From: Nitrosospira sp. NpAV
Lineage (GTDB): Bacteria; Pseudomonadota; Gammaproteobacteria; Burkholderiales; Nitrosomonadaceae
Assembly: GCF_000832065.1 (NCBI RefSeq)
Contig: NZ_JXQM01000008.1
Coordinates: 62,001 to 126,000 of the forward strand
DNA length: 64,000 nucleotides
Direction of reading: 5' to 3'
Shown here: piece after piece, positions 2,887 to 61,442 of the stretch
Numbering within the stretch: position 1 is the stretch's first letter
How the letters are laid out: each line of letters begins with the position of its first letter
Made by a program: the position numbers and the translations under genes
Notes under the pieces: model-generated
What the model saw: the letters and a program-made list of their open reading frames with translations, nothing else
Told to the model about the DNA's origin: nothing
Database searches by the model: none

Positions 2887-2992
2887 CACAGCCCGTTCCC
2901 CGGCAAATCCGATAAAAATAGCTGGCTTGCCCGGGAGAGGGCTGGCTGGCAAAGCGCCGCCGGATTTAGGGAAGCCGGCAGCGACGAATAAA

Positions 2993-3457: not shown

Positions 3458-3497
3458 GTTTGCCTCCTCAGGCGAGATCTCGCATGTGCGAGTGGGT

Positions 3498-3692: not shown

Positions 3693-3711
3693 GATAAGCG
3701 ACCCAAGTCTA

Positions 3712-3897: not shown

Positions 3898-3920
3898 TCG
3901 GTGCTCCTTCCGCGATTATT

Positions 3921-3965
3921 AATGAGAATGATTCGTAATTATATTCACTTTTAGGGGAAATGCAA
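3921..3965 (-). promoter_or_regulatory. Promoter of hemP-bfd-bfr with a Fur-like box
   Basis: Read on the minus strand there is TTGCAT (3960-3965), a 16-base spacer and a perfect TATAAT (3938-3943). Just downstream and overlapping the expected start of transcription is AATGAGAATGATTCGTAAT (3921-3939 on the plus strand), which has one good half of the palindromic Fur box AATGAGAATnATTCTCATT and a weaker second half. The spacing to hemP is short. Iron-responsive repression is expected from the match and the genes served, but binding is not shown. Confidence 0.7.
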
Positions 3966-6913: not shown

Positions 6914-7008
6914 TATCCAGCAATTTTAACGATAAGCCCATATATGTGTTATCCATTAAATAAAAAACCGCTCGGACTCGCAGGACATTTTACCTGAGGA
7001 AATTGCAA

Positions 7009-10000: not shown

Positions 10001-10362
10001 ATCGTCGCATGGGTAAGGATCGCACGACTGATCTCGGTTTTCATTGGGACGAAATTAATCAAATCATTGAGACCAGCAGCCTTACGAATGAGATGATGGC
10101 GGGAATTGCATCTAGATACGGCGATTCATTAAGCCCACCTTATGAAAGAGATATAGATGAATTAAGGGAGAAGGGCTATAGCGAAATGCGAATGGATGTT
10201 TGTTTTACACAACTCATGACTTCATTTTGCGATATTAAACTCGCCCTCGATAACGAAATTAAGGAAGAAACGGTTTCTTCCACCTATACGACGAGCGAAT
10301 CAGAAGGCTCCAAGAAAATTAGTTTGGATCCTGTAACACATACGTTACGATTTAGCAGGTAG
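7009..10362 (+). CDS. Three-module glycosyltransferase
   Basis: About 1117 residues. Module 1 (about 1-265) is GT-A/GT2-like with a D-x-D core in LLMDADEFY. Module 2 (about 280-620) has a GT-B/GT4-like layout beginning KNILICTLWLRGFRGSEIVTYEVASW (core residues RGFRGSE). A coiled-coil linker (about 640-700, repeated NEQITS/KEQITS and GETRGELGD) ends in a SRSWKITRPLR motif common in multi-domain polysaccharide glycosyltransferases. Module 3 (about 785-1050) is another GT2-like unit with SMIRNE at its start and VFFLDADEF. The TTG at 7009 is preferred because GAGGA lies 8 bases upstream; a TTG at 7003 is too close to it. It probably adds several sugars in one polypeptide and may set chain length through the coiled coil. 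Confidence 0.82.
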   Translation: MKLSASINFFNSEETLFQAVQCIRPYVDHLSIIYQEVSNYGHPISTEALNILEQLKIHNLVDDWIKYQPDLSLPATKNEFLKRREGLRIARDEEATHFLLMDADEFYLPSEFESAKNVIEEKNIDYSCVHSYFYVHKPTYRSLDVDTTNVCFIAKITDKLAFDFAGEFPAESVDPTRRISVPGGKFKFFDEHEICMHHMNFVRRDFISKLLNTSSAADENFIKQARNSLTSWRYPAVFSFPNKPLHQIIETENLFNLSESLYKSDSSLSPLDNSKDMHQKNILICTLWLRGFRGSEIVTYEVASWFAKQNWKVSIFTSEFEDPIAQEFLALGSNVVVFTDQTDSELIDIYPNLDFCWIHHQHLPESFIDFLAHGGKKPWMTFNHMSPYEQLEYPVVSAAEEKLADIILCNSQETLDVLRNYFSDSIDKIKLFQNPAPVDFYEAAQECDRTHSERLSRVVIVSNHSPAELKEAASLLQKNNVLVNFIGTDQHLTVRVTPNLLNNYDAVITIGKTVQYGLAIKKPIYIYDHFGGSGYLSKDNFQENEYYNFSGRHNEKKTGEQIADEIITNYLDARNFVQNLSNDQLKRFLLNDQLLILLNQSADYQKKIIPAEDFFEIDLIKAYSRNLSILLISNSSNNAIAAHNEQITSFSQILATQKEQITSLNQTIIETQRELGETRGELGDIRNTLARVFSSRSWKITRPLRVLNRAVHWRQSPPNRISNNFKILATSLRERGLNETVSKIAARLKVMTAISARVDESWITTSGARSTAQLPKTLNQPIDQTRKKITLISMIRNEKSIVEAFCAHALSLFDQVILIDHLSSDGTREYIKLLSEKHPSIEYFYFEEPGYYQSELMTWIARNVVDNEVPGWVFFLDADEFLPFRSREEFDHMLSKFRSFPIISMPWLNLVPLDMESGRVIDELFLKPPTPSFNCKIAFQPSLIPLDDYIVAQGNHALLMGDKFSQRLPVENAFPIYHLPIRTKHQLREKISHGVESYRRMGKDRTTDLGFHWDEINQIIETSSLTNEMMAGIASRYGDSLSPPYERDIDELREKGYSEMRMDVCFTQLMTSFCDIKLALDNEIKEETVSSTYTTSESEGSKKISLDPVTHTLRFSR

Positions 10363-10401
10363 CAAAGCCAATAATAATTTATATAAGCATATTGGACATA
10401 T

Positions 10402-11220
10402 ATGAGTGAAGAGCCTGGGGAACTGCTGAAATTTTTGGAGCCGTCCGGAACAACAATTGAAACGCTAACACCGACCGCATGGGGTGGACACATACCATTC
10501 ATGTTTTGCCTCATGAACTATATGCGTCCACGCACATATCTAGAGCTCGGTACACACTATGGGGCTAGCTTTTTTGCCGTATGCCAGGCGATACGAAAAT
10601 TTGAAATAGATTGTTCGCCGACCGCTGTCGATCTCTGGTTGGGAGATGAGCATGTTGGGCAGTACGATGAAGATGTCTATAAACGGTTTAAATGGATACT
10701 TGAGAATAAATATACTGGCATTGGTCATGCAATTAGAAAAGATTTTAATGAAGCGGCAGCCGAGTTCAAGAATCATACCCTTGATCTCATCCATATAGAT
10801 GGGCTGCATACCTATGAGGCTGTTAAGAACGACTATGAAACGTGGCTCCCAAAAGCATCTGAAAATAGCGTTATCCTATTTCATGATACTGACGTAAGGG
10901 AGAGAGGTTTTGGAGTTTGGAAACTCTGGGATGAAATCAAGGATGACTATGTAAGTTTCAACTTTACTCATACGCATGGACTGGGCATTATTGCGCTCGG
11001 CTCTGCTTTAGAAAACCCAATAATCCGCTTATTACAAATCATAAACTCTTCTGAAACTTGCAAGAAGTCATTCGATAATTTTTTTCGTCTAGCTGGTGAA
11101 CGTGCTATCGGGGAAGCTATGGCGACAATAAGACACGGTGAACTGCAAGCATTTCATGATCGAGTCCCACCGCTGATTATTAGTTTTGTTCGATATTGTA
11201 GGCGAATTCTACGCGGATGA
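10402..11220 (+). CDS. Class I SAM-dependent methyltransferase
   Basis: 272 residues. Motif I is YLELGTHYGASF. A later DLIHIDGLHTYEAVKNDYETW segment (core HIDGLHTY) and FHDTDVRERGFGVW match the methyltransferase-24 type often found in polysaccharide clusters. It sits between two glycosyltransferase genes and overlaps the next start by ATGA. A role in methylating a sugar of the exported chain, perhaps as a terminal cap read by Wzt, is inferred from position and not proven. Confidence 0.82.
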   Translation: MSEEPGELLKFLEPSGTTIETLTPTAWGGHIPFMFCLMNYMRPRTYLELGTHYGASFFAVCQAIRKFEIDCSPTAVDLWLGDEHVGQYDEDVYKRFKWILENKYTGIGHAIRKDFNEAAAEFKNHTLDLIHIDGLHTYEAVKNDYETWLPKASENSVILFHDTDVRERGFGVWKLWDEIKDDYVSFNFTHTHGLGIIALGSALENPIIRLLQIINSSETCKKSFDNFFRLAGERAIGEAMATIRHGELQAFHDRVPPLIISFVRYCRRILRG

Positions 11221-12473
11221 GCTCCAATCCTGGCATCCTGATTCGCTACATCGACCTGCCGTGGTATCGAAAAATATCAGGTCGCCGCTTTTCTTCCGGA
11301 GCTGATGCTGCAGCTTACTATGTGCGTGAAGGTGAGGCCCGCGGTGATTGGCCTAATCCTCTTTTTGATCCAGGCTTTTACCGGCAACAGATAAAGCTTG
11401 GCGCCGACAAATCAAGTCTCCAGCACTTTGTTACAGACTCAGCTGGTAGGAAAAGCCGCCCTTCTCGCTTTTTTGATCTGGATTGGTATGAATGGCAAAA
11501 TCCTGATTTTAGCGAGACGGGCTGTGGACTCCTCCATTATCTCGAAATCGGTGGGAAACAGTACCGAGACCCATGTCCACAGGTCGACATGACTGCCCTC
11601 TCCCGAGTTCATGGGCACTTGGGTGACGGAACCATCCTAACGCATTTGCTTGCTGCCGGACATATTGATTGCCGTATGGTCAATGCTGTTACCAACGATG
11701 ATACGGATCTAGTACGCCGCCAACGGGAATTTCGTCGCAAAATCAAACCATCTCTTTTAAAAAGTCGTACCCAGCCCCTGCAAGGTCGAAATTTAGTATT
11801 TGTTCAGTGCGCCAAAAACACGGAATTTTGGTCGTGGTTTGATGCAAAAAAGAAACGTGATTGGGATATTTTTCTAAATTGCTATGCTGGCGATTTCCCC
11901 GAAACAAGAAACGCGGAACATGTTTGCGAGCAGGCCGGCACAAAGTTCACAGGAATGTTTAACTGCTGGCTACATTGGCCTGAGATATTCAATCTATACG
12001 ACAATATTCTTTTTATCGATGACGATCTTGTTTTCAATTTTAAGGATATCTCAACATTTTTCAAGAAAATGGAAGATGCAATGCTTGATTTAGCGCAGCC
12101 CTCACTATCGGCTGAATCGCAGTGTATATGGCAAGCATTTTTCAATGTCCAGAAGACCGGGAGTCGGAAAACAAATAGTGTTGAAATCATGATGCCAGCA
12201 TTGTCTAGACGTGCAAGAGATATCTTTTTACCGTATTTCCTCTACAGTGTCAGCGGCTTTGGTCTCGATCTTCTCATGGGCAAGCTGGCATCGACCCATG
12301 AACTCACTGTTGGCGTTATTGATGACATAATTGTGCATCATGGAAAGAATATCGATCAGTCAAATGGTGCATATTATGAGTTCCTTCGTCGCAATCACAT
12401 AAATAGTCGTTATGAGTTATGGCGTATTATTAATATATTTCAAACAAGTCGCGGTCTTTATGAAATGAATTAA
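11217..12473 (+). CDS. Putative glycosyltransferase with N-terminal FDxxWY repeats
   Basis: 418 residues. The first 130 residues contain about three copies of a pattern seen at the ends of polysaccharide glycosyltransferases: FDxxxY/WY, NPDF, then G-x-x-HYL-x-x-G and R-x-P. The C-terminal half (about 195-400) has a nucleotide-sugar-transferase look, with an acidic FIDDDLVF core and a WDIFLNCYAGDF segment reminiscent of DUF707 proteins. The start overlaps the methyltransferase stop. Its sugar specificity cannot be read from the sequence, and family assignment is moderate. Confidence 0.6.
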   Translation: MSSNPGILIRYIDLPWYRKISGRRFSSGADAAAYYVREGEARGDWPNPLFDPGFYRQQIKLGADKSSLQHFVTDSAGRKSRPSRFFDLDWYEWQNPDFSETGCGLLHYLEIGGKQYRDPCPQVDMTALSRVHGHLGDGTILTHLLAAGHIDCRMVNAVTNDDTDLVRRQREFRRKIKPSLLKSRTQPLQGRNLVFVQCAKNTEFWSWFDAKKKRDWDIFLNCYAGDFPETRNAEHVCEQAGTKFTGMFNCWLHWPEIFNLYDNILFIDDDLVFNFKDISTFFKKMEDAMLDLAQPSLSAESQCIWQAFFNVQKTGSRKTNSVEIMMPALSRRARDIFLPYFLYSVSGFGLDLLMGKLASTHELTVGVIDDIIVHHGKNIDQSNGAYYEFLRRNHINSRYELWRIINIFQTSRGLYEMN

Positions 12474-12709
12474 ACCGACGCTCTTAAAGGGACATATAGA
12501 GCCGCTTTCAGCTTAGTGCAATCGTAAACAGATAACATTTCCATCTCCTTCTAGTAACCGGGATGTGGGGACGCCTGCCAAAACCATGTTCTGATCATGC
12601 TGATACGATTCAGGATTTCTGTTTTCCGCTGAAACTGTTCTTGTCGTACTGCAAGACCTGACGAAATGAGCCTGCCAAGACTAGATCACTACACATTTTG
12701 GGTGGATTG

Positions 12710-14470
12710 ATGCGAAAGGTGTGGATTGAATTTTCTCGTAAGGCTGGGACAATAAAATACTTGCTGAAGCACCCTGAAATTCTGCGCGGTTACGCCTTAC
12801 ACGCGCGGAAATTGGGTATGCTAAACTCATTACGTCGCGCAATTGAAATTGTCAAACGAGGAGAACTGCGTCAGGGACCCATGCCCACCGGCACCACACC
12901 CAAACTTCTCTTGCGATCGAATTCGGTGGCGCCTACAATCATTCTTACCACTCCACATTGTCTCTACTTGGCCCATGCCATCTCGGCTGCCTTGTCTCGA
13001 ATTGGGGTCGAAACTCAAATCATCAATGAGCGCCCTGGTCACGGCTACAACGATGAGCTTTACTTTGTCATTTGTCCCCAAATGTTTGCATCACTGCCGC
13101 CCTTATACATCGCATTACAGATGGAGCAATCGGTCAGTTCACGCTGGTTTAATGATGAGTATCTGCGTATCTTAGAAAATTCTGCCGCCATCCTCGACTA
13201 CTCTACGATCAATATCAGCTTCCTCACGCTTAAGGGCTTGAGCCCGCGCCAAATCTACTATCTTCCCATAGGTTACATCGCTAATTATGGGCCCGAGCCG
13301 GATCATACGTTGGAAGATTGTGATGTAATTTTTTATGGGGATGTAAAAAACAAGCGGCGGCAGGGATTTCTGCGCGAACTTAAAAAACATTTTCGCGTAG
13401 AAATAGTTAATGATCTCTTTGGGAAATCGCTTCATGCTGCCTTGGCGCGCGCTCGCATAGTTGTGAACATTCACTACTATGCTGGGGCGTTGTTGGAAAC
13501 GACCCGAATTTGGGAATGCCTATCATTGAATAAGCTCATTATCTCAGAACGTTCCAGCGACATGGATCAACATGGGGAGTTGCTGCAGATCATTGATTTC
13601 GTGGATATTGATGATATATCAGGTATGGTTGCACGTGTACGCTATTGGCTAGACAACGACAGCTTACGTCAGCAGCGTATTTCTGAGAATCGCCTTTTGC
13701 TCCAAGAGCAACCCAATCGATTCGATTACTTTTTCTACAGATTTCTATTGGCAACAGGCAACATCACCTTTAAAGATTTTTGGCACCAAGCTGGTCACAA
13801 AGTTAAATTACCCAGTGACAAAATTTGCCTCACATTGCCTGAATATGTTGAACGCACGGATGAGTTTAACAAAGATAATCACTTCAGTTTTTCATGTTTT
13901 CCAGGACTGCGGCACACTCAAAGCTGGCTCGGTTGCGCAATGAGTTATAAGTTGATAATCATGCTGGCACGCCAACAGTGTTTGCCACAAGTAACCATCT
14001 GCGAAGATGACGTCGAGTTTCCACCCGATTTCGCCTCGCGATGGCGAGACATACAGCATCACTTGAACGATGAGAATTCGAATTGGGATATCTTTTCGGG
14101 GCTGATGGCCAATCTTGATAAGGATGTGCGTATCTTGGAGACGCATATCTATCAAGGCCACAACTTTGCCAGTATTGATAAATTAATCAGCACAGTTTTC
14201 AACGTCTACCACCAACGAGTATTCGACACTATCGTACGGTGGGATGAAACCAACCATGATGTAATAACCAACACTATTGATCGCTACCTTGAGAGACACG
14301 GATCCATAAAAGTATTGACTGTTGAGCCCTTTCTTGTGGGGCACAAAGAATCTCAACAATCCACCATCTGGGGCGTTGAAAATAGCCATTATACGGATCT
14401 GATCCTTGCCAGTAGTGAGTTATTGAGAGAAAAGATGCGGGCGTACAATACAGATACAAAATCTTCGTGA
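12710..14470 (+). CDS. Bifunctional glycosyltransferase (GT-B-like plus GT25-like)
   Basis: About 586 residues from the ATG at 12710 (four more if a TTG at 12698 is used). The N-terminal half (about 75-350) looks like a GT-B enzyme of the CgeB/glycosyltransferase-1 type, with IYYLPIGY, DVIFYGDVKNKRR and a WECLSLNKLIISERSS donor-site segment. The C-terminal part (about 370-560) has the layout of family 25 LPS transferases: a GLRHTQSWLGCAMSYK acceptor-side segment, then an acidic TICEDDVEF core. A 236-base gap separates it from the upstream genes, so it may have its own promoter. Sugar donors are unknown. Confidence 0.68.
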   Translation: MRKVWIEFSRKAGTIKYLLKHPEILRGYALHARKLGMLNSLRRAIEIVKRGELRQGPMPTGTTPKLLLRSNSVAPTIILTTPHCLYLAHAISAALSRIGVETQIINERPGHGYNDELYFVICPQMFASLPPLYIALQMEQSVSSRWFNDEYLRILENSAAILDYSTINISFLTLKGLSPRQIYYLPIGYIANYGPEPDHTLEDCDVIFYGDVKNKRRQGFLRELKKHFRVEIVNDLFGKSLHAALARARIVVNIHYYAGALLETTRIWECLSLNKLIISERSSDMDQHGELLQIIDFVDIDDISGMVARVRYWLDNDSLRQQRISENRLLLQEQPNRFDYFFYRFLLATGNITFKDFWHQAGHKVKLPSDKICLTLPEYVERTDEFNKDNHFSFSCFPGLRHTQSWLGCAMSYKLIIMLARQQCLPQVTICEDDVEFPPDFASRWRDIQHHLNDENSNWDIFSGLMANLDKDVRILETHIYQGHNFASIDKLISTVFNVYHQRVFDTIVRWDETNHDVITNTIDRYLERHGSIKVLTVEPFLVGHKESQQSTIWGVENSHYTDLILASSELLREKMRAYNTDTKSS

Positions 14471-17058: not shown

Positions 17059-18561
17059 CTATCCGGTTGGTTCCAGCGACCCCGCCTGCGGGCTCGCTGG
17101 ATGCGCAACCGGACTTCCAGGTTCTTGCACGCCCTTTTCCGCAACCGAGGCACTTTTCTCGCCCTGAAAGACAACGGAAAAGGCTGTCCCCTTATTGGGC
17201 TCGCTGGAAACCTTGATTTGCAGTTTGTTATTTTCCGCAACGGTTTTTACTATCGATAACCCTATTCCGCTTGATGTTCTATTGTGGAGTACGGCTCTGG
17301 GTGTATAAAAATATTCATCGAAAATATGCGGCAAGTCTTTTTCTCCGATCCCAATCCCGTGATCGGTGACCGTTACCATGGTGGATAAACTTTGCCTGTC
17401 GATAATCGATGCAATCTCCACCGATGCACCATCGTATGAATAGGCAATGGCATTTGAAATGATATTTTCGAAGAGAATTTCCAGCTGATTGCGAATGCCT
17501 TCAACCACAAAGTCCTCAACGGATACTTTGATGTCGATGTGCCGTGAATTGGCGATAGGGTGTAATTTGTCGACACACTTGCGGATCACCGCTTCGATAT
17601 TGACATGTTCTCGCGCATTTTCACTTCGGGCAGCCGCTTTCAATCGTTCAAGTTTGAGTACATCCAGAATCAGGCCTGCCATACCGGAAGCACGGTAATC
17701 GATTTTTGCTATGACATCTTTTATTTCAGGTGAAACTTCTCCGCAATAATCGCCCTTTATCAGATTGATTTTGCTGCGAATCGCATCGAGCGGCGCTTTA
17801 AGCTGGTGTGTCATCAGAACTGCGTACCGATCTTTCTCAACTTGGGCTCGGCTGATCTGTTCGTAAGCATCGAGGAGCTGGCGTTCGCGTGTACGTACCA
17901 CGATAGCAAGCCGTGAAACCACATACCAGACAATGACAAACAGTACGTCAAGGGTAAACATCCATGAAAGGATATCAATTTTATGCGGATTTATGCCGGA
18001 TGTGCCGGAACCAATCAGCACGGATTGGGGAGAGAGAAAAAGAAGCGGGGTTTCTATCACTAAAACGATTGCATACATGATGCAAACCAGGATCGTCACT
18101 ATCAGGCTTTCCATTGCCGAGAAGAAAATACACGATAGGGCAATGTGCAGCACATAAAAAAACGGAGCAGGTGTTGCGATGCTGCCAACATAGTGGACGA
18201 CAACCGACAAGCATAAAAGGTCGATAATGATTTGTGCCCAGATATTTATCGACGGGGAGTTATAACTGGATTGCCGGCGGGAATCCAGGGCATAGATGCA
18301 GACAATATTCGCGATGCACAATACCAGCGTGATAGCGAGCGGCCATCCTTGTTGATGAGTGATGCCCGCTTCGGTAAGCGTATCTGAAGCAATTACCGCT
18401 ACTATCTGAAAAAGGATGAGAATGCCGATCACACCCCATCGAAAAATAATAAACCATCGGGCGTTGCCGATTAATACTTCATCGCTGAGCTTCGAGCCGG
18501 TTACCCCGGAGAATGCAAAGCGACTCCTGGATTCACCCCAGGAAAATTCGGCAATGGCCAT
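17059..18561 (-). CDS. Membrane sensor histidine kinase
   Basis: 500 residues. About six hydrophobic segments (residues 37-220) form a membrane sensor without a recognisable periplasmic domain. A short coiled coil leads into the H-box, MTHQLKAPLDAIRS, with H252 as the phosphorylated residue. The ATPase domain has N (FENIISNAIAYS), G1 (DHGIGIG), F (FDEYF) and G2 (SSGIGLSIV) boxes. It follows the response regulator gene at 18589 by 27 bases, so the two form a pair. The last codons run into a strong inverted repeat. The stimulus is unknown. Confidence 0.9.
   Translation of the reverse strand: MAIAEFSWGESRSRFAFSGVTGSKLSDEVLIGNARWFIIFRWGVIGILILFQIVAVIASDTLTEAGITHQQGWPLAITLVLCIANIVCIYALDSRRQSSYNSPSINIWAQIIIDLLCLSVVVHYVGSIATPAPFFYVLHIALSCIFFSAMESLIVTILVCIMYAIVLVIETPLLFLSPQSVLIGSGTSGINPHKIDILSWMFTLDVLFVIVWYVVSRLAIVVRTRERQLLDAYEQISRAQVEKDRYAVLMTHQLKAPLDAIRSKINLIKGDYCGEVSPEIKDVIAKIDYRASGMAGLILDVLKLERLKAAARSENAREHVNIEAVIRKCVDKLHPIANSRHIDIKVSVEDFVVEGIRNQLEILFENIISNAIAYSYDGASVEIASIIDRQSLSTMVTVTDHGIGIGEKDLPHIFDEYFYTPRAVLHNRTSSGIGLSIVKTVAENNKLQIKVSSEPNKGTAFSVVFQGEKSASVAEKGVQEPGSPVAHPASPQAGSLEPTG
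17062..17113. terminator. Large inverted repeat at the 3' end of the sensor kinase gene
   Basis: A nested palindrome of 52 bases. The outer arms are TCCGGTTG (17062-17069) and CAACCGGA (17106-17113). The inner arms are CCAGCGA-c-CCCGC (17073-17085) and GCGGG-c-TCGCTGG (17088-17100). It lies inside the last codons of the kinase and between convergent genes (arfB ends at 16996). There is no clear T-run, so it may be a weak bidirectional terminator or an mRNA-end stabiliser. Confidence 0.5.
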
Positions 18562-18588: not shown

Positions 18589-19059
18589 TTAGATTTCCGC
18601 ATTCGCCTTCTCAAGGCGGCTGCGAATAATCGATAGGAAACTGGCGGGCTCAACCGGCTTCTCCACGATCAGAATCCATTCGTCGGATACGCCTGTGAAA
18701 TACGGACGGATCTCTTCCCCGAGAGAAGTCATGAATATCATATGAAGCTGTGGAAGGCGTTTGCGGATTTCGACAAAAGCTTCCAAACCGGCATCCATGG
18801 TTTCGACCATCACATCGAGAATTGCCAGATCCGGCGGATTTTCCGATTCCCGCAGGGATTCCAAGAAATCTCCCATTGTCTGGTAGCTATCGACTATATA
18901 TCCATTGGCGCTCAGAATACGCTTTACCGTATCCCGGATATCCGGATCGTCATCGACATGAGCAATCCGTTGTTTCGCAGAATCTTCTTCTGCAAGTACC
19001 GGATTCGACCGCTGACCCGCCAGTTTGCCCGGTTCTGAGTGTTGAAGAGTGGCATGCAT
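18589..19059 (-). CDS. Single-domain response regulator
   Basis: 156 residues consisting of a receiver domain only. The acidic pocket is D36-D38 (HVDDDPD), the phospho-acceptor is D82 (AILDVM), the switch residue is T111 (MTS) and the conserved lysine is K134 (VEKPV). No DNA-binding or other output domain follows, so it probably passes the signal to another protein. A low-complexity N-terminal extension of about 28 residues precedes the receiver. It is the first gene of a two-gene unit with the sensor kinase at 17059. Confidence 0.88.
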   Translation of the reverse strand: MHATLQHSEPGKLAGQRSNPVLAEEDSAKQRIAHVDDDPDIRDTVKRILSANGYIVDSYQTMGDFLESLRESENPPDLAILDVMVETMDAGLEAFVEIRKRLPQLHMIFMTSLGEEIRPYFTGVSDEWILIVEKPVEPASFLSIIRSRLEKANAEI

Positions 19060-19150
19060 TTTAGTCTCCTCCGTTTCTGTTATATATGTATGGAAATACC
19101 CTATTGTTAGGAGGGTAATATAGTATGTGTGAAGGCAGCGTCAGGCGCAA

Positions 19151-19167
19151 GTTAAGAATTCGTTAAG
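19151..19167. promoter_or_regulatory. Direct repeat GTTAAG-n5-GTTAAG upstream of the two-component pair
   Basis: Two identical GTTAAG hexamers (19151-19156 and 19162-19167) are spaced 11 bases start to start, about one helical turn, some 90-110 bases upstream of the response regulator start. The geometry is that of binding sites for tandem winged-helix (OmpR/PhoB type) regulators. The adjacent receiver protein has no DNA-binding domain, so a different regulator would be involved. This is a pattern match only. Confidence 0.35.
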
Positions 19168-19404
19168 ATTGCAGTTGGGCGGGGATTAAAATGATGTCAG
19201 GGGCTGCTGTGCCGTGTGCCGTATTGAGGCAGTCTTCCCTTTTTCCGCGTATTGGCGACACCGCAGGGCGCAACCCATTGCGCCATATGGCGTAGCAGAT
19301 TGGGGAGGGTGCGATGAAGGTACGTTTGAATAGGGATTAAATTGGGACGGCAGATGGCATAACGCGCCTCGCTTATTACACCCTACGTCCTGCTTTCCGC
19401 GGAG
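19168..19404. other. Gap between the two-component pair and the esterase
   Basis: No gene, hairpin with T-run or recognisable repeat was found here. Together with 19060-19150 it makes about 345 bases between the response regulator start and the esterase stop. It should contain the promoter of the response regulator-kinase unit. Confidence 0.4.
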
Positions 19405-20091
19405 CTACATCAAAATTCGCTTCAGCCAATCACTGATATCGGCTATTTCCTTTGCACAAACAGAGTGTGCCATCGGATATTCATGCCACTCCACCGCATA
19501 GCCGGATTCAAGCAATTGCCGGCTTGAATCCGCTGCCAGCGTCCTGGGTACGATGTTGTCGGCGCTGCCATGTGCCATGAAAATCGATATGCCGGAATTA
19601 GCTCGATGCGCCTCCGCCGCGAGCATTTGCGACGCCGGCAAGTAACACGATAATGCCATGATGCCGGCAAGTTTTTCCGGGTAACGCAAGCCGGTTTGCA
19701 GTGCGATGGCCCCACCTTGGGAAAAACCTGCCAGGACGATATTTCCCGGTTCGATACCACGGTGCTTCTCACGGCCTATCAGCGCTTCGATTGCCCGTTG
19801 CGAATCGCGCAAGCTCATCATATCTTCATGAACGCCGGAGTCTGGATCGATCATGTCATAGTCGTGCCATGCCCGCATCACCAAGCCCCGGTTAATGCTC
19901 ACCGGCCTCATGGGTGCATGCGGGAACACAAAACGGATGTGGAGACTGGACGGCAATGCAAGCTCATCCACAATGGGAACAAAATCGTTGCCATCGGCTC
20001 CGAGACCATGCATCCACAAGACCGCGTATGTGGGACGAACTCCGGTTTCAAGTTCGACGGCGGGAAGCAACCCTGTGGGAGAAGTAGTCAT
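19405..20091 (-). CDS. Phospholipase/carboxylesterase family hydrolase
   Basis: 228 residues, the usual size of the alpha/beta-hydrolase esterase family. The early LWMHGLGADGNDF segment forms the oxyanion side. The nucleophile elbow is AGFSQGG, the acid is in HGSADNIVP and the catalytic His is in PMAHSVC. These enzymes cleave short-chain acyl esters or lysophospholipids in the cytoplasm. The gene is divergent from the transglutaminase gene at 20207. The true substrate is unknown. Confidence 0.9.
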   Translation of the reverse strand: MTTSPTGLLPAVELETGVRPTYAVLWMHGLGADGNDFVPIVDELALPSSLHIRFVFPHAPMRPVSINRGLVMRAWHDYDMIDPDSGVHEDMMSLRDSQRAIEALIGREKHRGIEPGNIVLAGFSQGGAIALQTGLRYPEKLAGIMALSCYLPASQMLAAEAHRANSGISIFMAHGSADNIVPRTLAADSSRQLLESGYAVEWHEYPMAHSVCAKEIADISDWLKRILM

Positions 20092-54404: not shown

Positions 54405-54978
54405 CGTGAGGCTCCTCCTGGCGAAAATCATCGGCTGCGGGGCTGGCAAGCTGCCAAGGCAAATGCAACGACATTGAAGACGATCCCGCTTCGTGTCCAG
54501 TTTATCCGCATGGCAGACCTTTGCAAACTCATCTTTCAGAGACCCATGATGGGGCTAGCCATAACTCCAACTCGTGCTGCTGCGCTCGCTGGGCGCGCGC
54601 CCAAACGTGACTATACCGCCATCGAAACATCCATCAGCGAGCCGCCTTAGAAGCGATCGACATGGCTCCATAGGCAACAACGCATCATGCGCAAAACAGA
54701 TGCGCAGAACAGTTATTTTTTATTTTTTATCCCTGCTCTGCGCACTCGTCAGTTTCGGCAGGAATCCTTCCTCTTTCATCCGTTGAGTAGTACCAACGCA
54801 CCGTTTCGTTCTTGAACAACTCGAGAAATCGGCTTGACTATAAAAGGAACACTGCTATGAATAAGTGCAGATAGCGGGTTTAAGTGATGCTCATTTTTCT
54901 TGTTCATGCGGTTTAGCTTCCAAACAGTAATTACCCGGCTCAATCTGCACCATGCTCAACCAATAGGAGGTGACTATC
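54405..54978. other. Gap upstream of the cysteine-rich secreted protein
   Basis: 574 bases between divergent genes. Open frames on the plus strand here (to 54650 and 54574-54786) show no domain and overlap the transferase promoter. No repeat was recognised. The promoter for the next gene should lie in the AT-rich part near 54780-54960. Confidence 0.35.
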
Positions 54979-55752
54979 ATGAAACAGCTACACGTGATCG
55001 GAGTCTTGTCCGTTTTGGCGGTTCTATGGGGAGGCCTAAGCTCTATCGAACTTATTCCATCCTCTCGGGCAGAGACGGTGAAGCCTACGAAGACAATCAA
55101 AACCGAGTATCAATATGCTGCAAAAGTCGTCTGTTCGCTATTGTTGCCACACCAGGATGGAACTTTGGCGAGGGGCACCTACCGCACGACTGTCAATATA
55201 CACAACCCCACCAACAAGCAAATCACTGTTGCCGCCAAAGTAGCGCTTGCCACCCCGTTTGGCTCGGAACCAGGTCCCTTTGGCGTTACGCCATTCAAGG
55301 AAGCCGTTCTCCAACCGGATGGAGCGGTGGGCGTAAGCTGCTTCGACGTCGCCGGCTACTTTTGCCCGATCGACGGAGTTTGTGTGGATTTCGCGTTCCT
55401 GGAAGGATTTCTGGTTATAAAAAGTCCTGTGCCTTTGGATGTTGTCGGGGTATATACGGCCCGGCACACGGATGGAGACGTGGAGTCCATCGACGTCGAA
55501 ACGGTACAGCCCAAGCAAGTTCCTGAGACGGTTAAGGTGGGGTCAACCGAGTCCACGAAACCGGGCGGCGGGAAGCGTGTCGATTATCCGCCCAAAGGAA
55601 GCCCTGCGTACGGCGATAAGGAACCTAAACAAATGTGTGGCGGAATAGCCGGGTTTCCCTGTCCCGCCGGCAAGACTTGCGTGGATGATCCTTCAGATAA
55701 TTGCGATCCCACCCGGGGTGGTGCCGACTGCAGCGGTATCTGTGTGAAATAA
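54979..55752 (+). CDS. Secreted protein with C-terminal eight-cysteine-type domain
   Basis: 257 residues from the ATG at 54979, seven bases after GGAGGT; an in-frame GTG at 54970 lies inside that ribosome site. A signal peptide (LHVIGVLSVLAVLWGGL, cut near SSRA) leads to a middle domain of about 130 residues with TTVNIHNPTNKQITVAAKVAL. A charged spacer follows, then a cysteine-rich tail: MCGGIAGFPCPAGKTC, DDPSDNCDP, GGADCSGICVK. The C-x-G-I-A-G-x-x-C-P-x-G-x-x-C-V pattern occurs in secreted proteins of bacteria and fungi and may be a Kazal-like or carbohydrate-contact module. Function unknown. The neighbours give no clear link. Confidence 0.65.
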   Translation: MKQLHVIGVLSVLAVLWGGLSSIELIPSSRAETVKPTKTIKTEYQYAAKVVCSLLLPHQDGTLARGTYRTTVNIHNPTNKQITVAAKVALATPFGSEPGPFGVTPFKEAVLQPDGAVGVSCFDVAGYFCPIDGVCVDFAFLEGFLVIKSPVPLDVVGVYTARHTDGDVESIDVETVQPKQVPETVKVGSTESTKPGGGKRVDYPPKGSPAYGDKEPKQMCGGIAGFPCPAGKTCVDDPSDNCDPTRGGADCSGICVK

Positions 55753-56007
55753 TAGCGCACGGATGCGGGAAAGTTTTTGCAAGGGGACGCGACATCCATG
55801 GCGGGTCTTGCGCGACAGCAATGAAGCCGCTGACTGCGGGCGGGGAAATATGCGATGGGTGTGGCGTCCCGCAATCTGGGAATCAAATTTGAATTCCGGG
55901 TTTGCGATGCCAGTTTGCCAGCCTAGGCATGCACATGTCGTGTATGTTCATTGCAGTGCCTGATCACCAATGTTTTCAAATCAAATAGAGCGAATAGAGG
56001 AAAAATT

Positions 56008-57246
56008 TTGCGCATTAGTAAACTAGCCATTTCTGAGAACGAGAATACTGCGCGACTCAGCGCAACTGTTTCCCACGAAGCACTGGAAAAGTCCGAGCAA
56101 GATATTTACTTTGAAGTGGGCATTCAGCACAAAAACTATTTGCGTGCATTTTATGAACCTTTCATTTTAGCGTGCTTTCCGGCAGCACTTCTTCACGGTG
56201 AGAAACGAATATCGGTTGAGGGAGCTGCATGCCCAGAACTCATTAGCAATATCAAATCAGCAATGCTGCTTCAGAAACGCTGGTGGAAAGACAAAAATAC
56301 ACTCCCCATTATTGAATACAAAAACAATCGCATCTTGGATTTAGCCCCCCACGGCACGGCAGGCTTTATGTCGGGGGGCGTTGACTCGCTATCCAGCTAT
56401 TGCAGAAACATCTCCTTGTACACATTAAAAGACCCGAGGCGAATACGGCATGCGATATTTGTTTATGGCCTGGATGTTGGCGATCCCAACAAGATGGAAA
56501 GAAAGGATATTTTTGAAGAAGGCAAAAATAAATTGGTTTCTTTTTTAGAAAGGAATGGATGCGAATTAATTCCCGTTTATACAAACGCCCGAAACATTGA
56601 GCCGGATTGGCGCTTCTATGAAGAGAGGCATTTTGGTGCGCTCTTAAGCGGCATCGCCCATGCTCTAAGTGGAAAATTCAGCCATTGCCAGTTGGCACTG
56701 GATTCTCGGGCCGATTTTGCCGATGAGTGGGGCTCTCATCCATGGCTAAATAATTATGTATCCAGTTCGGGGTTGGTTATTAATTCGACCATGGATGCCT
56801 ATTCGAGGCTGGAAAGATATTCTTTTCTAGCCCAAAAACCTGAATCTTTAGAGACCCTTCGGGTTTGCTATATGATGAACAACATACCAACGGGTGAAAT
56901 CAATTGTGGCAAATGTTCAAAATGCACCAGAACAAAAGTTGAATTACTTTCGCACGGCCTATTAAATGACGCCAAGACTTTTTCAGACAAATCCATATCC
57001 CCAGACTTGCTTCGTGGCCTAATAGTTAGGCATCCCCACGAAGTAGAATATGTTGGAGAGCCTATAAAACGCTTAAGGGAGATTGGCGAAAATGAAATTG
57101 CGGATCATCTAGAGGAACAGATTAAGAAATATAATTCTGGCCCAAATATTAAAGATCGAACAATCAATCTTCTGAAAAGTTTTGATGCAAAATTTCTGAA
57201 TGGTTTTTTAAAAACAACCCTTAATAGAAGAGAAAAAAACCCGTGA
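56008..57246 (+). CDS. QueC-like PP-loop ATP-pyrophosphatase family protein
   Basis: 412 residues from a TTG at 56008, chosen because AGAGGA lies seven bases upstream; the frame extends 19 codons further without a better site. The PP-loop SGGVDSLSS is at about 122-130, and a QueC-type zinc site is seen as C287 then C300-x2-C303-x2-C306 (RVCYMM ... NCGKCSKC). True QueC makes preQ0 and is about 230 residues; this one has an extra N-terminal domain of about 115 residues and a long C-terminus. Similar long QueC-like proteins occur in phage-defence operons (QatC, Cap9-type). It is AT-rich and next to an AIPR gene, so a defence role is likely, though its partners are missing. Confidence 0.7.
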   Translation: MRISKLAISENENTARLSATVSHEALEKSEQDIYFEVGIQHKNYLRAFYEPFILACFPAALLHGEKRISVEGAACPELISNIKSAMLLQKRWWKDKNTLPIIEYKNNRILDLAPHGTAGFMSGGVDSLSSYCRNISLYTLKDPRRIRHAIFVYGLDVGDPNKMERKDIFEEGKNKLVSFLERNGCELIPVYTNARNIEPDWRFYEERHFGALLSGIAHALSGKFSHCQLALDSRADFADEWGSHPWLNNYVSSSGLVINSTMDAYSRLERYSFLAQKPESLETLRVCYMMNNIPTGEINCGKCSKCTRTKVELLSHGLLNDAKTFSDKSISPDLLRGLIVRHPHEVEYVGEPIKRLREIGENEIADHLEEQIKKYNSGPNIKDRTINLLKSFDAKFLNGFLKTTLNRREKNP

Positions 57247-57473
57247 TATTTTGATTGCCTAGGTTCTAATTTTTGAATTGATTATTATCGTCCAATTTTA
57301 TTTTCCCCATTGTTTTCTTGGCAATCAATCAAACAGGGGCTAGTTTTTTGAAATTACCAGAAAGCCAACCCTCGTCTGGCCTATCTCTATCTCCCATCCC
57401 GCCTAGCAACTACAGCAGAACCGGGCGAAATATTCCCGACGCTTCAAGATTTGCCCCCCAGCGTCATCCCGGA

Positions 57474-57507
57474 AAAGAAAAAAGGATCAGCCTGTAAGCT
57501 GACCCTT
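57474..57507 (-). terminator. Terminator-like hairpin at the distal tRNA fragment
   Basis: On the minus strand GGGTCAGC-ttacag-GCTGATCC is followed by seven Ts. It lies just beyond the duplicated tRNA 3' half, where the original terminator of that tRNA would have been before an insertion. It resembles, but does not equal, the hairpin at 59915-59952. Confidence 0.65.
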
Positions 57508-57511
57508 GATT

Positions 57512-57561
57512 TTGGTAGCGAATCCCAGATTCGAACTGGGGACCAACGGATTATGATTCCG
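57512..57561 (-). repeat. Duplicated 3' half of the CAT tRNA (attachment-site-like direct repeat)
   Basis: These 50 bases are identical to 59959-60008, the T arm, variable region, anticodon arm and CCA end of the tRNA at 59960-60035. After them the sequence diverges (AAAGCCACCT here versus CTGCTCTAAC in the tRNA), so the 5' half is missing and this is not a functional tRNA. The two copies are in the same orientation and bracket one gene (57713-59749). This is the pattern left by integration into a tRNA 3' end. Confidence 0.85.
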
Positions 57562-57712
57562 AAAGCCACCTGAGAACAGCTTAGATAACAAAGGCTGAAT
57601 TGATAGGCGCTGTAAACAAATAGGCACGAACATATACTTTGTACGCTAGAATTTCAATTTATTTGCCATAACTAAATTCTTTTCTAATGTTTCTGTGCGC
57701 CGGAGAAATACG

Positions 57713-59749
57713 TTGGCAAAAAATGACAAAATCTTGCTGGATGCGATCATTGACGATAGGGTTGAATTGCAAGTTCCGTCGGACAAACGCGACGAGGCAT
57801 TTGAATATCTCGCCTTCCAGCAGATATTAAAGGACTATGATCTTTCTCAAGATGAAACCGAATCGGGATGGATCGATGGGCATAAGGATGGGGGCATTGA
57901 TGGCTTCTTTATATTCGTTAACGGGCATCTATTACAGTATCCAGAATCGTTCATGTGGCCCCGCACTGGATCAGAGCTTCATGTTTCTATTATCACTTGC
58001 AAGCATCACGATACATTCAAGCAGTCAACGCTAGACAAACTTGTTGCAAGCTTGACGGAATTACTCGACTTCGAAGTCGACAATAACGAGCTGAAAGGGG
58101 GATATTCTGAATCCGTAATCAAACTTAGGAATAATCTTAGGTTGGCTTATAGAAAGCTCTCCCCAAGAATGAGCAAATTTACAGCGGATTTTTGCTATGC
58201 GTCTCGCGGGAACACTTCAGAGATTGGCGATGAAGTACGATCAAGAGCTGAACAAATAAAAAGCATAGCATCGGACTGTTTTAGTACATGCGTTCCGCAA
58301 TTTACGTTTCTCGGGAGCAAGGAACTGGTTGAGCTTCATCGAAGAATGCGAAACTATTCTCTGGAGCTACCTTTTATTGAGGTGCTCTCAAGAGGTGAAA
58401 GATATGTTCTCTTGGCTAGACTAGCAGATTACTATTTGTTCACATCGGAGGAAGGCAGACTCAGAAGGTATCTCTTCGAATCAAACGTACGAGATTTCAT
58501 GGGCTTAAATCGAGTCAACGAAGACATAAAGGCAACACTGCATGATATAAATTCTCCAGATTTTTGGTGGCTTAATAATGGAATCACTATCCTAGCTACC
58601 TCTGCAAGCGTTGTTGGAAAATCTATTCAAATCGAAGATATTCAAATCGTCAACGGGCTTCAAACAACCGAATCAATCTTTCGGCATTTTACCCAAGGAG
58701 GAAGTGATCCAGAAGATCGGTCTGTCTTGGTAAAGATAATTGTTTCACGAGAGGAGACTGTGCGAGACGCCATTATCCGTGCAACGAATAATCAAACGGA
58801 TGTCGAGCTTGCTTCGCTTCATGCTACTGACAAAATACAGCGGGACATCGAAGACATCCTCTTACGAAAAGGACTGTTCTACGAGAGAAGAAAGAATCAC
58901 TATACAAATCTTGGGCATACATCACGCGAGGTCATCACACCTCTTTATCTCGCCTCTGGTTATGTGAGTTTGCTTCTCAAGCAACCCCACAAAGCGGCTG
59001 TACTGAAATCAAAATTTATGCGTTCGCAAGAAGCGTATAAACTCGTCTTTTCAGATACTGCGCCTATTGATGTGTGGCCAAAAATCGCCACCGTATTAAA
59101 AAAGACTGACGAACTGCTTGAAAAACTGCGGCCTACTAAAAAGATAACTGAAGGGTTTCTTAAGGGGTGGCGGCATATTATTTGTTTTTTCACTATTTCA
59201 AGGCTTCTTGGACGATTTGATTTTCTGCATGAACATCTCATAGCCTTGGATACTGAGAGCGCTTTCGAAAAGGAGTTACTGGAAAGCTGGAAATACATTC
59301 ACAACTTTGGTGAGAAAAACATCGGTAGAAATATTTGGTCAAAAAAAGGAAATATTGTCGCGTTGTGTGTAGCCGGGGGATCGCATTTCGGCATAAATGG
59401 AATCGAGCGAGTCCAGGCATCGCAGGATTTTGGCTATGGAGCAACTGAGGCCGATAAATTCAAAAAATCTATTCGAACCATTAAAGCTAGAGTAGACATG
59501 GACTTCGCTTTGAAAGTCAAAGATCTGTTACCTCCACAACCTTGGAAGCCGGGCCTACACAAGCTCATCTCAACATCACTGTGCTGTAGCAACAGCGAGT
59601 ATTTTTCAGCGGTCGAGTTACTAATTCACGAAGGCTTAGTGAATCGTCAAGTTGATGGGGTGGTATATGATCCCTCTGGAGATGTTTTGTGTTTCGATCC
59701 TGAACGGGTGGAGCCCAAAACAATGAAGTTGCTTGAAAATAAGCGTTAG
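57713..59749 (+). CDS. AIPR-family (abortive infection/phage resistance) protein
   Basis: 678 residues from a TTG at 57713 with GGAGA six bases upstream; the frame is open to 57695. The AIPR core (about 257-325) is ESNVRDFMGLNRVNEDIKATL then FWWLNNGITILA and IQIVNGLQTTESIF, the hallmark of the family. The N-terminal part has GGIDGFFIF and about 30 residues later IITCKHHDTF, a D...C-x-K arrangement that could be a degenerate PD-(D/E)xK nuclease centre (D63, K97; tentative). The last 200 residues are family-specific without a recognised domain. AT-rich codon use differs from the chromosome. It is the only gene between two 50-bp tRNA repeats. Confidence 0.85.
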   Translation: MAKNDKILLDAIIDDRVELQVPSDKRDEAFEYLAFQQILKDYDLSQDETESGWIDGHKDGGIDGFFIFVNGHLLQYPESFMWPRTGSELHVSIITCKHHDTFKQSTLDKLVASLTELLDFEVDNNELKGGYSESVIKLRNNLRLAYRKLSPRMSKFTADFCYASRGNTSEIGDEVRSRAEQIKSIASDCFSTCVPQFTFLGSKELVELHRRMRNYSLELPFIEVLSRGERYVLLARLADYYLFTSEEGRLRRYLFESNVRDFMGLNRVNEDIKATLHDINSPDFWWLNNGITILATSASVVGKSIQIEDIQIVNGLQTTESIFRHFTQGGSDPEDRSVLVKIIVSREETVRDAIIRATNNQTDVELASLHATDKIQRDIEDILLRKGLFYERRKNHYTNLGHTSREVITPLYLASGYVSLLLKQPHKAAVLKSKFMRSQEAYKLVFSDTAPIDVWPKIATVLKKTDELLEKLRPTKKITEGFLKGWRHIICFFTISRLLGRFDFLHEHLIALDTESAFEKELLESWKYIHNFGEKNIGRNIWSKKGNIVALCVAGGSHFGINGIERVQASQDFGYGATEADKFKKSIRTIKARVDMDFALKVKDLLPPQPWKPGLHKLISTSLCCSNSEYFSAVELLIHEGLVNRQVDGVVYDPSGDVLCFDPERVEPKTMKLLENKR

Positions 59750-59914
59750 TCGAAGTCTATGAAGTTATCAAACAGCCCTGGTAAGTCTGAGTTTGGTTAT
59801 AGCTGAGTCCGCCAGTCATTAGAAGGCCACTAACAATTTCGACGGAAAAATTAATATACAAGAGGGGGGTATAATTTATCCGGAAAGTTATCCCTGCGTT
59901 ACCCCAAAACCCCA

Positions 59915-59952
59915 AAAACTAAAAAAGGGATCAGTCAATAGACTAATCCCTT
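59915..59952 (-). terminator. Rho-independent terminator of the CAT tRNA
   Basis: Minus strand: AAGGGATTAGTC-tatt-GACTGATCCCTT followed by TTTTTAGTTTTT. This is a textbook hairpin and T-run located directly after the tRNA CCA end. Confidence 0.8.
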
Positions 59953-59959
59953 GATCTAT

Positions 59960-60035
59960 TGGTAGCGAATCCCAGATTCGAACTGGGGACCAACGGATTA
60001 TGATTCCGCTGCTCTAACCACTGAGCTAATTCGCC
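59960..60035 (-). tRNA. tRNA with CAT anticodon (Ile2 or elongator Met)
   Basis: A 76-base tRNA on the minus strand with CCA encoded. The acceptor is GGCGAAT/ATTCGCT (one G-T pair), the D arm GCTCAGTGGTTAGAGC, the anticodon arm GCGGA-ATCATAA-TCCGT with anticodon CAT, and the T arm CCCAG-TTCGAAT-CTGGG. The body (TTAGCTCAGTGGTTAGAGCAG) is closer to the E. coli ileX type, which needs lysidine at C34, than to elongator tRNA-Met, but the choice is not certain. Its 3' half is duplicated at 57512-57561. Confidence 0.92.
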
Positions 60036-60272
60036 ACATTGTAAGCGCCCAAGGGGATGGCATTGTGCCTTCAGAGACACGCTCTGTCAAGATTTACAAG
60101 GGCTTGCATGAGGCTTACATAAGGCTTGAGGAAAGCCGGAAAGGTTCTAAATGACTGATTCCAGCGTGTCTCCGGATTTAACCCCATGAAAGAACCTGTA
60201 TTACTTATCCGTTCAAATTCCGGGAAGTTGCATACCTTGGCCCAGCGGCTTAAAGCGGCTTATAATGTCCTC

Positions 60273-61442
60273 ATGAATTTCGATGTCGTGATTGTTGGCG
60301 GCGGACTGGTTGGGGCAAGCCTGGCACTTGCGCTCACGGATAGCGGTCTCAAAATTGCACTGGTGGAGTCGCGTCCACCGACGCCTCTTCCCGTTGACGA
60401 TAGCTGGGACAGCAGAGTTTATGCAATAAGTCCTGGGAGCGCCAAATTTCTGCAAGCCTTTGGCGTGTGGCAAGCGCTCAAGGAAGACCGGATTACGCCG
60501 GTTTATAAAATGGCGGTATTCGGTGATGATAGCGCCGCACGTCTTGATTTCAGCGCCTATGATATCGGATTGACGGAGTTGGCTTTCATCGTGGAGAATC
60601 GCCAGCTCCAGACTGCGGTGTGGAATGCGCTCAAACGCCAGAAAAAACACGTCAAGATCTTCTGCCCTGCGGAATGCGCTTCGATAACCTGGAACGAGTC
60701 TCACGCCGATTTACATCTGGCGGACGGCAATGTGCTGCAAGCGGCATTGATTGTTGGCGCGGACGGCCTGAATTCCTGGGTACGGGAACAAGCAGAAATC
60801 GGGGTCGTGCGGCATTCCTATCAACAAATTGGGGTGGTGGCCAATTTCAACGCGGAACAAAGCCATCGCAATGTTGCCCACCAATGGTTCCGGCGGGATG
60901 GCGTGCTGGCGCTGCTGCCATTACCGGAGACGCGGGTATCCATGGTATGGTCGGCAAATGAAGAACGGGCTCGCGCGTTGCTCGATTTATCCGAAACGGA
61001 ATTGTGCCAGCAGGTTACCCAGGCCTCTTGCCGCGCGCTAGGTGAACTGCGGCTTATTACACGGCCTGCCGCTTTTCCGCTGAATTTCGTGCACGTGAAG
61101 AAACTGGTGCAACCGCGGCTCGCTCTCATCGGTGATGCCGCCCACGGCATACATCCCCTAGCGGGACAAGGTGTTAATCTGGGATTGCGTGATGCGCGCG
61201 AACTGGCCGCGACGATGATTGCGCGCGGACTGGAACCAGATTGTGGCGATTATTTGTTGCTGCGCCGCTACGAGCGTGCACGCAAGGAAGACATCCTCGC
61301 AATGGAACTTGCCACCGATGGTCTGCAGAGATTATTCAACAACACTAACCCGACGCTGGTTCGCTGGCGTAACTTGGGACTGGAAATCACCAACCGGCTA
61401 CCCCTGCTGAAAGACCGATTGATGCAGCATGCGTTGAGTTGA
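60273..61442 (+). CDS. UbiH/UbiF-type FAD-dependent hydroxylase
   Basis: 389 residues from MNFDVVIVGGGLVGASLALAL; the frame is open 29 residues further up without support. The N-terminal FAD-binding motif is GGGLVGAS, DSRVYAIS is the family signature near residue 60, a mid DG motif is GADGLNSWVR and the C-terminal FAD site is ALIGDAAHGIHPLAGQGVNLG. These enzymes hydroxylate the ubiquinone ring. It is either UbiH, UbiF or a broad-range member such as UbiM; sequence alone cannot decide. DsbC follows 238 bases downstream. Confidence 0.9.
   Translation: MNFDVVIVGGGLVGASLALALTDSGLKIALVESRPPTPLPVDDSWDSRVYAISPGSAKFLQAFGVWQALKEDRITPVYKMAVFGDDSAARLDFSAYDIGLTELAFIVENRQLQTAVWNALKRQKKHVKIFCPAECASITWNESHADLHLADGNVLQAALIVGADGLNSWVREQAEIGVVRHSYQQIGVVANFNAEQSHRNVAHQWFRRDGVLALLPLPETRVSMVWSANEERARALLDLSETELCQQVTQASCRALGELRLITRPAAFPLNFVHVKKLVQPRLALIGDAAHGIHPLAGQGVNLGLRDARELAATMIARGLEPDCGDYLLLRRYERARKEDILAMELATDGLQRLFNNTNPTLVRWRNLGLEITNRLPLLKDRLMQHALS

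Follow-up and report, generated by a model that had tools for sequence, protein, structure and literature searches.

The 64,000-nucleotide window analysed here, a stretch of contig NZ_JXQM01000008.1 of Nitrosospira sp. NpAV, carries at 57512-60035 a gene of the AIPR/AbiU family that lies alone between an intact tRNA gene and a displaced copy of the 3' part of the same tRNA. We propose that this segment is probably a non-autonomous tRNA mini-island of a single gene (~2.4 kb), similar to the cis-mobilizable elements (CIMEs), which was inserted site-specifically in the anticodon arm of the tRNA gene and from which the recombinase is now absent. The NpAV genome (G000 below) is a draft assembly of 315 contigs and 3.45 Mb; other genomes are designated likewise by G numbers.

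Structure of the island

The island is delimited by a 50-bp direct repeat whose two copies, at 57512-57561 and 59959-60008, are 100% identical, have the same orientation and are spaced 2447 bp apart; the six other direct repeat families found around the island measure 14-22 bp each. The repeat comprises nucleotides 28-76 of a tRNA plus one base, and its right copy is contained in an intact tRNA gene at 59960-60035 (minus strand, anticodon CAT), the one tRNA recognized here by ARAGORN and Rfam (RF00005, E 4.5e-14). The left copy by itself is not recognized as a tRNA by either. The inner, tRNA-side copy (59959-60008, of which 59960-60008 is the 3' part of the intact gene) resembles an attachment (att) site of the attL type, and the displaced tRNA 3' part at 57512-57561 resembles attR. 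When the NpAV genome was searched with the tRNA (E 0.001), five places were matched, with 100% identity only at the intact gene and the left copy. The CAT tRNA gene at 59960-60035 occurs once in the genome, and any insert has to restore the tRNA.

ARAGORN labels this tRNA as Met from its CAT anticodon, and two further CAT tRNAs of the genome appear by eye to be elongator-like and initiator-like, respectively. The best-ranked six of 5,999 E. coli records for the window tRNA are annotated as tRNA-Ile, and the one inspected has a CAT anticodon; its identities number 57 of 76 with the window tRNA, and 59 of 77 with the other non-initiator CAT tRNA of NpAV. A reading of the window tRNA as tRNA-Ile2 was dropped on this comparison, in which the E. 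coli tRNA-Ile is no closer to the window tRNA, and the sequence would fit either an elongator Met or an Ile2 tRNA with a CAT anticodon.

Beyond each repeat copy lies a terminator-like hairpin with a T-run on the minus strand, at 57476-57507 left of the displaced copy (-16.0 kcal/mol, z -2.99 for the fold of 57465-57520) and at 59919-59952 beyond the intact tRNA (-19.1 kcal/mol, z -5.37 for the fold of 59915-59967). The 48-nt flanks of the two copies align with a mutual score of 12.5, which none of 500 shuffles reached.

Between the copies, the only open reading frames (ORFs) of at least 80 amino acids are the AIPR/AbiU gene (57695-59749, plus strand) and one antisense ORF inside it. While the longest ORF, from 57695, encodes 684 aa, the TTG at 57713 is the likelier start because most close homologues begin at MAKND, giving a gene of 678 aa at 57713-59749. 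The product matches the Pfam family AIPR (PF10592, E 1.4e-41, 143.6 bits against a curated cut-off of 25) and the PADLOC model AbiU over residues 10-542 of the 684-aa ORF (E 8.1e-149, 495.2 bits; no curated cut-off is given for this model). It is therefore a member of the AIPR/AbiU family and has a putative role in phage defence. The island ends are non-coding: the left inner end (57562-57712) has no match in the other stretches fetched for comparison, and the right inner end (59750-59958) matches a relative, G005, over its last 44 bp only. The GC content of the island is 42.2% as against 50.0% for the window, and the GC content at third codon positions (GC3) is 0.42 in the AIPR gene and 0.59 in its right neighbour. 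No integrase ORF is present in the island, nor any match to a profile built from ten integrases, and tblastn searches of the island and its left flank for integrase remnants, made with the integrases of relatives G018, G015 and G022, gave no significant hit other than to the tail of the G018 protein that the tRNA encodes. An earlier note, made from the letters of this DNA, had described a perfect 50-bp repeat of the tRNA 3' part in one orientation with related hairpins beyond the copies, and only an AT-rich AIPR-family gene between them; the repeat search, folds and shuffles confirm the first statement, and the ORF scan, Pfam, PADLOC and GC content the second.

The tRNA site in related genomes

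To the right of the tRNA stands a gene for a UbiH-like protein (60186-61442, plus strand; Pfam FAD_binding_3), which was searched in 61 genomes and the best 30 loci kept, own included. The UbiH-like gene and the tRNA are adjacent in 26 of these 30, a pairing that is conserved in the family; the exceptions are G015 and G022, with the tRNA 5' half only, G002, where the contig ends, and G007, where most of the stretch is masked. From 20 same-genus relatives, up to 20 kb past the tRNA was then taken, some stretches being short at contig ends (left of the tRNA, 2.9 kb in G003, 2.2 kb in G013, 7.3 kb in G018 and 11.5 kb in G010). An intact tRNA is present in 19 of the 20 stretches, and within the fetched sequence 15 of the 19 have a single tRNA copy. 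In the remaining four (G018, G019, G015 and G022) a partial second copy occurs alongside other cargo; tyrosine integrases are encoded by three of these inserts but not by that of G019. G013 has a 94% tRNA copy on another contig, near a gene resembling the conserved left neighbour. This left neighbour (54970-55752, plus strand; no Pfam family at E 0.001), the far edge of the variable region, is present in 14 of the 20 stretches; what lies between it and the tRNA varies from genome to genome. The site is a hotspot.

In each of the five genomes examined for breakpoints, the displaced fragment is broken within the anticodon arm. In the 3' type (G000, G018 and G019) the 3' part of the tRNA is displaced and ends at ATTATGATTCCG, or in G018 at ATTATGATTC; in the 5' type (G015 and G022) a 39-nt 5' part is displaced and begins at ATTATGATTCCG. 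The region common to both types, ATTATGATTCCG in the anticodon arm at 59997-60008 (shared by G018 only to ATTATGATTC), is the presumed crossover region, and the exact 10-base core has no other occurrence on either strand of the fetched stretches. Shared breakpoints of this kind are as expected from crossover by a site-specific integrase, unlike those of random homology. The insertions of G015 (locus L085) and G022 (L084) are of a mirror type, in which the element carries the tRNA 5' half and the native 39-nt 5' half is displaced beside the UbiH-like gene, together with an integrase. In Islander, 2083 of 3919 tRNA islands are reported as anticodon-centred and 159 of 3919 as having a 5' fragment (PMC4383910).

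For the window island, an element carrying its own tRNA 3' part and terminator would have crossed over with the chromosomal copy within the anticodon arm; the incoming 3' part would have rebuilt the tRNA, and the old 3' part would have been pushed to 57512-57561. Alternatively, no integrase was involved and the segment came by homologous or illegitimate recombination, with the tRNA and terminator as anchors. The terminator stretch next to the intact tRNA (59915-59958) is relevant here, as it has 91% identity over 44 bp with its counterpart in the distant congener G005, whose UbiH-like protein is 74% identical to that of NpAV; it scores 32 in G005 and at most 14 in the other relatives, some of which also score above most shuffles. 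A block of tRNA plus terminator may thus have been imported, and the tRNA-side end module may have travelled, though related terminators are common at this site. An import without an integrase is nonetheless unlikely, given that the breakpoints of five genomes are all located in that one anticodon arm and that the right flank follows close relatives, in which the UbiH-like protein is 92-93% identical.

A further alternative is that the repeat arose by local duplication or misassembly and that the gene is an old resident. Although the draft state of the assembly would leave room for such an error, we find this highly improbable: the repeat pair lies within a 310-kb contig, like duplications occur in other genomes, including the single-contig G022, and the gene is without a close match in relatives. 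Among 22 same-genus genomes no match to the AIPR gene exceeds 40% identity; seven have matches at 28-40% identity, none of them on the contig stretch of this site.

A second one-gene insertion at the same site

In G019, a decayed displaced copy (90% identity) lies ~1.28 kb from the intact tRNA. The insert holds a single ORF of at least 90 aa, which is 310 aa long, and no integrase was found in it. The 310-aa product has a weak TIR-type match (PADLOC, E 3.6e-5) and a match below the cut-off to the Pfam nucleoside deoxyribosyltransferase family (E 0.083). The sister genome G020 is collinear with G019 on both sides of the insert, with G019 17403-18235 corresponding to G020 18746-19583 (89%) and G019 19462-19930 to G020 19532-20000 (94%). 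At this site G019 therefore carries a precise insertion of one gene, different from that of NpAV, and G020 has the empty site. An integrase-like ORF of G020 is located ~7 kb away, on the side of a tRNA-Leu gene. Three 3'-type islands of the genus have both their ends on one contig (G000, G018 and G019), and two of these are one-gene and integrase-less. The earlier note had suggested comparing this locus across Nitrosospira relatives for empty sites or other cargo. The outcome was favourable, with 15 single-copy relatives and four with other cargo at partial copies, and an exact empty site was found for the sister case G019/G020 but none with the left flank of the window island; the opposite outcome, in which gene and tRNA duplication would be present throughout the close relatives, is excluded.

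Homologues of the cargo gene

When 199 genomes, that of NpAV among them, were searched with the AIPR gene, 29 had a match at E 0.001 or better. In named genomes a scan yielded 45 homologue loci, from Rhodocyclales, Aeromonas, Acidithiobacillus, Arcobacter, Paraburkholderia, Bacteroidota and others, and close AbiU homologues (53-61%) are spread over distant phyla, a scattered distribution that fits horizontal spread. Among 72,556 plasmid records and 50,697 phage records, 86 and 18, respectively, contain distant homologues, and in no case is 80% of the query covered.

ARAGORN found tRNAs in four of the 45 loci. The AIPR gene is bracketed by tRNA-tail repeats in two of these four: L122, found in a first pass, and L135, found when the search was repeated with a shorter tail. 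L122 (a Phycisphaerales metagenome-assembled genome (MAG), 3222-9959) is a tRNA-Glu island with an AbiU homologue, in which a 69-bp repeat covers a hairpin together with the end of the tRNA; it has its own integrase, overlapping the tRNA (PF00589, E 2e-10). In L135 (Saccharibacteria, 5821-13014), three tRNA-tail copies at 5831, 9581 and 12996 lie beyond an initiator-like tRNA, each following GTGCGCTG, and by the pattern used they are the sole three in the 1.1-Mb genome (a control pattern gave 0). The first of the two cells so formed (3.75 kb) contains an AIPR gene, 32% identical to that of the window, a C5 cytosine methylase and a 183-aa ORF, and the second (3.4 kb) contains NYN and CutA1 genes among others; no integrase was detected in the 13.5 kb of sequence covered at this locus. 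In L127 an integrase lies 4 kb from the AIPR gene.

Two other loci have repeats of a different kind. In L097 (a Bacteroidales MAG, 470-4930) an AbiU homologue lies between 148-178-bp repeats, which resemble integron attC sites, and the locus would be a gene cassette. In L133 (an Acidimicrobiia MAG) a 39-bp direct repeat of 92% identity (5868-5906 and 11527-11565), not recognizably part of a tRNA, brackets the AIPR homologue.

Integrases and the origin of the one-gene form

Other elements at the tRNA site encode candidate recombinases. The 6.9-kb island of G018 encodes a 419-aa tyrosine integrase (PF00589, E 1.4e-23). G015 has a 344-aa integrase (PF00589, E 6.4e-31) beside the displaced 5' part of the tRNA, and G022 has, by similarity, a 338-aa integrase like that of G015 in the same position. 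In other genera of the family, integrases lie at most 300 bp from the same tRNA in G028, G035 and G029. The recombinase of the window island would most likely have been a tyrosine integrase of the kind encoded by these elements, either lost by an ancestor of the island in a CIME-like decay or acting from another element. We also observed that the integrase frame of G018 (L076) reads through the displaced tRNA part, which gives the protein a tRNA-encoded tail, SNHNPLVPSSNLGFATN.

The NpAV genome has six PF00589 matches, none on the contig of the window, and no PF07508 serine recombinase was found in it. Two strong matches and a pair on contig C54, one of these with an internal stop, look Xer-like by eye. 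Another is a 275-aa protein on C34, which may be a helper integrase. The sixth is a decayed C-terminal piece on C85 that is 57% identical over 58 aa to the G018 integrase; this piece (L149, ~5633-5932) adjoins a DUF3800 gene and an AAA_13 gene.

One way in which the island could have come to its present form is by reduction of a larger island with an integrase, which would have inserted in the tRNA and then been stripped down to a single cargo gene and the att copies, and would now be immobile. CIMEs are described as decayed elements of this sort (PMC5704250), an integrase-bearing island occupies the same site in G018, and the piece on C85 places the decayed remains of a G018-type integrase elsewhere in the NpAV genome. 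We would put this history at a little under an even chance. Neither an integrase remnant nor a second gene is left between the copies, the copies are still 100% identical, leaving little time for trimming to one gene, and G019 has an island just as minimal whose cargo is different.

The converse possibility is that the one-gene form is itself the mobile unit and borrows its integrase from residents that use the same tRNA. The two one-gene islands of the 3' type carry different cargo, several different integrases use the site in the family, and the two cells of L135 lie between three tRNA-tail copies with no integrase detected in the locus, although that search covered 13.5 kb only. The absence of a close integrase in the host at present and of shared or repeated end motifs for integrase binding makes this rather doubtful. 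As a wider and equally tentative conjecture, there might be a class of integrase-less defence mini-islands of one or two genes at tRNA genes, in which cargo is held between modules of the tRNA 3' part and moved in trans by any integrase using the same site; such a class, if true, would resemble the small non-autonomous elements that borrow a transposase, and island finders that ask for an integrase would overlook it.

By either route, a site-specific insertion in the anticodon arm remains our preferred explanation of the window island, and the 100% identity of the copies together with the lack of any remnant favours a recent insert that was already minimal. Several observations weigh against this explanation. 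No intact integrase of NpAV is closer than ~30% identity to the integrases at this site, which speaks against present movement, and neither arm-type repeats in the island ends nor ends shared with the G019 island were found beyond chance. Since the inserts of G015 and G022 share 87% over 2.1 kb, the four cases in relatives may represent three events. An empty site with the island's own left flank was not found among the relatives because 55895-57511 is itself genome-specific, and the site in G013 is split between contigs, so that its 28% AIPR match, on a third contig, may lie in the hotspot. Six of the 40 window ORFs of at least 200 aa have a lower GC3 than the AIPR gene (five in or next to an O-antigen-type cluster, one the QueC-like gene described below), and low GC alone is therefore weak evidence for acquisition. 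The fragmentation of the assembly into 315 contigs is a further caution. The mobile defence cassette originally proposed is supported in part, as an integrase-less island with a single defence-type gene at a specific site in a tRNA, while the lack of a close integrase in the genome argues against its moving at present.

Comparison with described elements

The island resembles the tRNA islands of Islander (PMC4383910) in its intact tDNA, its displaced 3' fragment in the same orientation and its anticodon-centred subsite. Of the features by which islands are recognized there, an intact tDNA with a correctly oriented displaced fragment is present, whereas the tyrosine integrase gene that Islander, as described, requires inside an island is missing, and there is one gene only. 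The window island would consequently be filtered out. Absence from the site in relatives, a criterion of our own, holds as well, with an exact empty site only for G019/G020. With CIMEs it shares the build of an att-flanked segment lacking integration and transfer genes, although in the available description (PMC5704250) these are defined by descent from integrative and conjugative elements (ICEs) or integrative and mobilizable elements (IMEs), while the island has a single gene on ~2.4 kb, with no ICE or IME beside it and no trace of decay found, and its att copies are assigned by sequence. A CIME would in addition be expected to be mobilizable in cis once accretion has taken place. An IME or phage satellite would need an integrase of its own, which the island does not have.

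Defence genes in hotspots that include tRNA loci have been described in E. coli, where 18 defence hotspots are in tRNA loci and the means of transfer are unclear (PMC10121019). Islands in those hotspots typically have an integrase or recombinase, in contrast to the window island, but the same report mentions hotspot cases without detectable mobile elements, so that the absence of mobility genes as such is not new. Small tRNA-bracketed remnants are also known, as in Pseudomonas fluorescens Pf-5, where a prophage remnant of 2.6 kb at tRNA-Cys lies between 84-bp repeats that overlap the tRNA (PMC2647930). The Pf-5 remnant is of similarly small size but keeps a truncated integrase and a phage tail gene. 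Cells without an integration module at a shared site have a precedent in Dehalococcoides, whose tandem islands are bounded by copies of the tmRNA 3' end, sixteen of them with an integration module (PMC3146451). Among the matches listed in a literature search of titles and abstracts, in which few subscription journals were covered, a recurrent one-gene, integrase-less defence form at one tRNA was not met. The parts of the island are known ones, and the minimal form that they take is unusual and recurs.

The transfer of single defence genes between bacteria in the absence of visible mobility genes is an open question, one instance being the E. coli hotspots (PMC10121019). The NpAV locus provides a concrete case, with a sharp-ended single-gene insert at a tRNA whose other inserts encode candidate integrases, and a second insert with a sister empty site. 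Islands as small as this one would be undercounted if their ends are acted on by integrases in trans, as Islander-type mapping filters for an integrase gene.

The AIPR/AbiU protein

Residues D63 and K97 are invariant in an alignment of 44 sequences, and in an N-terminal alignment of 37 sequences the divergent branch has QxK and the close branch mostly TxK or SxK. The predicted structure has a mean predicted local distance difference test score (pLDDT) of 87 for the full model and 95 for the N-terminal domain, in which helices, two strands, helices, a strand, a helix and a strand follow one another in a mixed alpha/beta arrangement. This order of elements, together with the conserved residues, may fit the topology and catalytic motif of a PD-(D/E)XK nuclease. 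When the N-terminal domain was compared with the PDB, the restriction enzyme MspJI had the highest probability among the 50 matches listed (0.77, TMq 0.41, with a weak E of 0.16), and no match reached E 0.001; the whole-protein fold search likewise gave no match at E 0.001 or better. Sequence searches of solved structures returned no match up to E 1 for the protein or the full profile, and the N-terminal profile gave one partial match at chance level (E 0.34). With moderate confidence, the predicted model and conserved residues suggest that a PD-(D/E)XK-like nuclease at the N-terminus is joined to the AIPR core, and phage defence by the cargo would proceed through these two parts.

AIPR proteins were assigned an N-terminal HEPN domain in a 2012 paper (PMC3506569). 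While the island protein belongs to the same family as AbiU/AIPR proteins by its profile matches (PF10592 and PADLOC AbiU), its predicted N-terminus differs from the HEPN domain of that description in being mixed alpha/beta with conserved D63 and K97, and a HEPN domain at this position is unsupported.

The left flank and another probably acquired block

The AT-rich stretch extends left of the repeat into a lone QueC-like gene at 55951-57246 (plus strand), which lies outside the repeats. This gene was not found at this place in relatives, the best relative being 34% identical in G017. Its product has, by eye, an SGGVDS loop and a CGKCSKC cysteine motif, and it matched neither a Pfam family (E 0.001) nor a PADLOC family (E 1). 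QueC-family proteins occur in phage defence (PMC13329287), which makes the neighbour worth a look, and it is possibly a second defence gene in the hotspot. A tandem island that would include the QueC-like gene was considered and is unsupported: beyond the gene, the best local score for a second, decayed tRNA fragment is 19, whereas shuffles averaged 18.1 and reached up to 28. Much farther to the left, at 4890-14470 of the window, is an O-antigen-type cluster (ABC2_membrane, Wzt_C and glycosyltransferases) with a GC3 of 0.35-0.42 for five genes, which is probably another acquired block.

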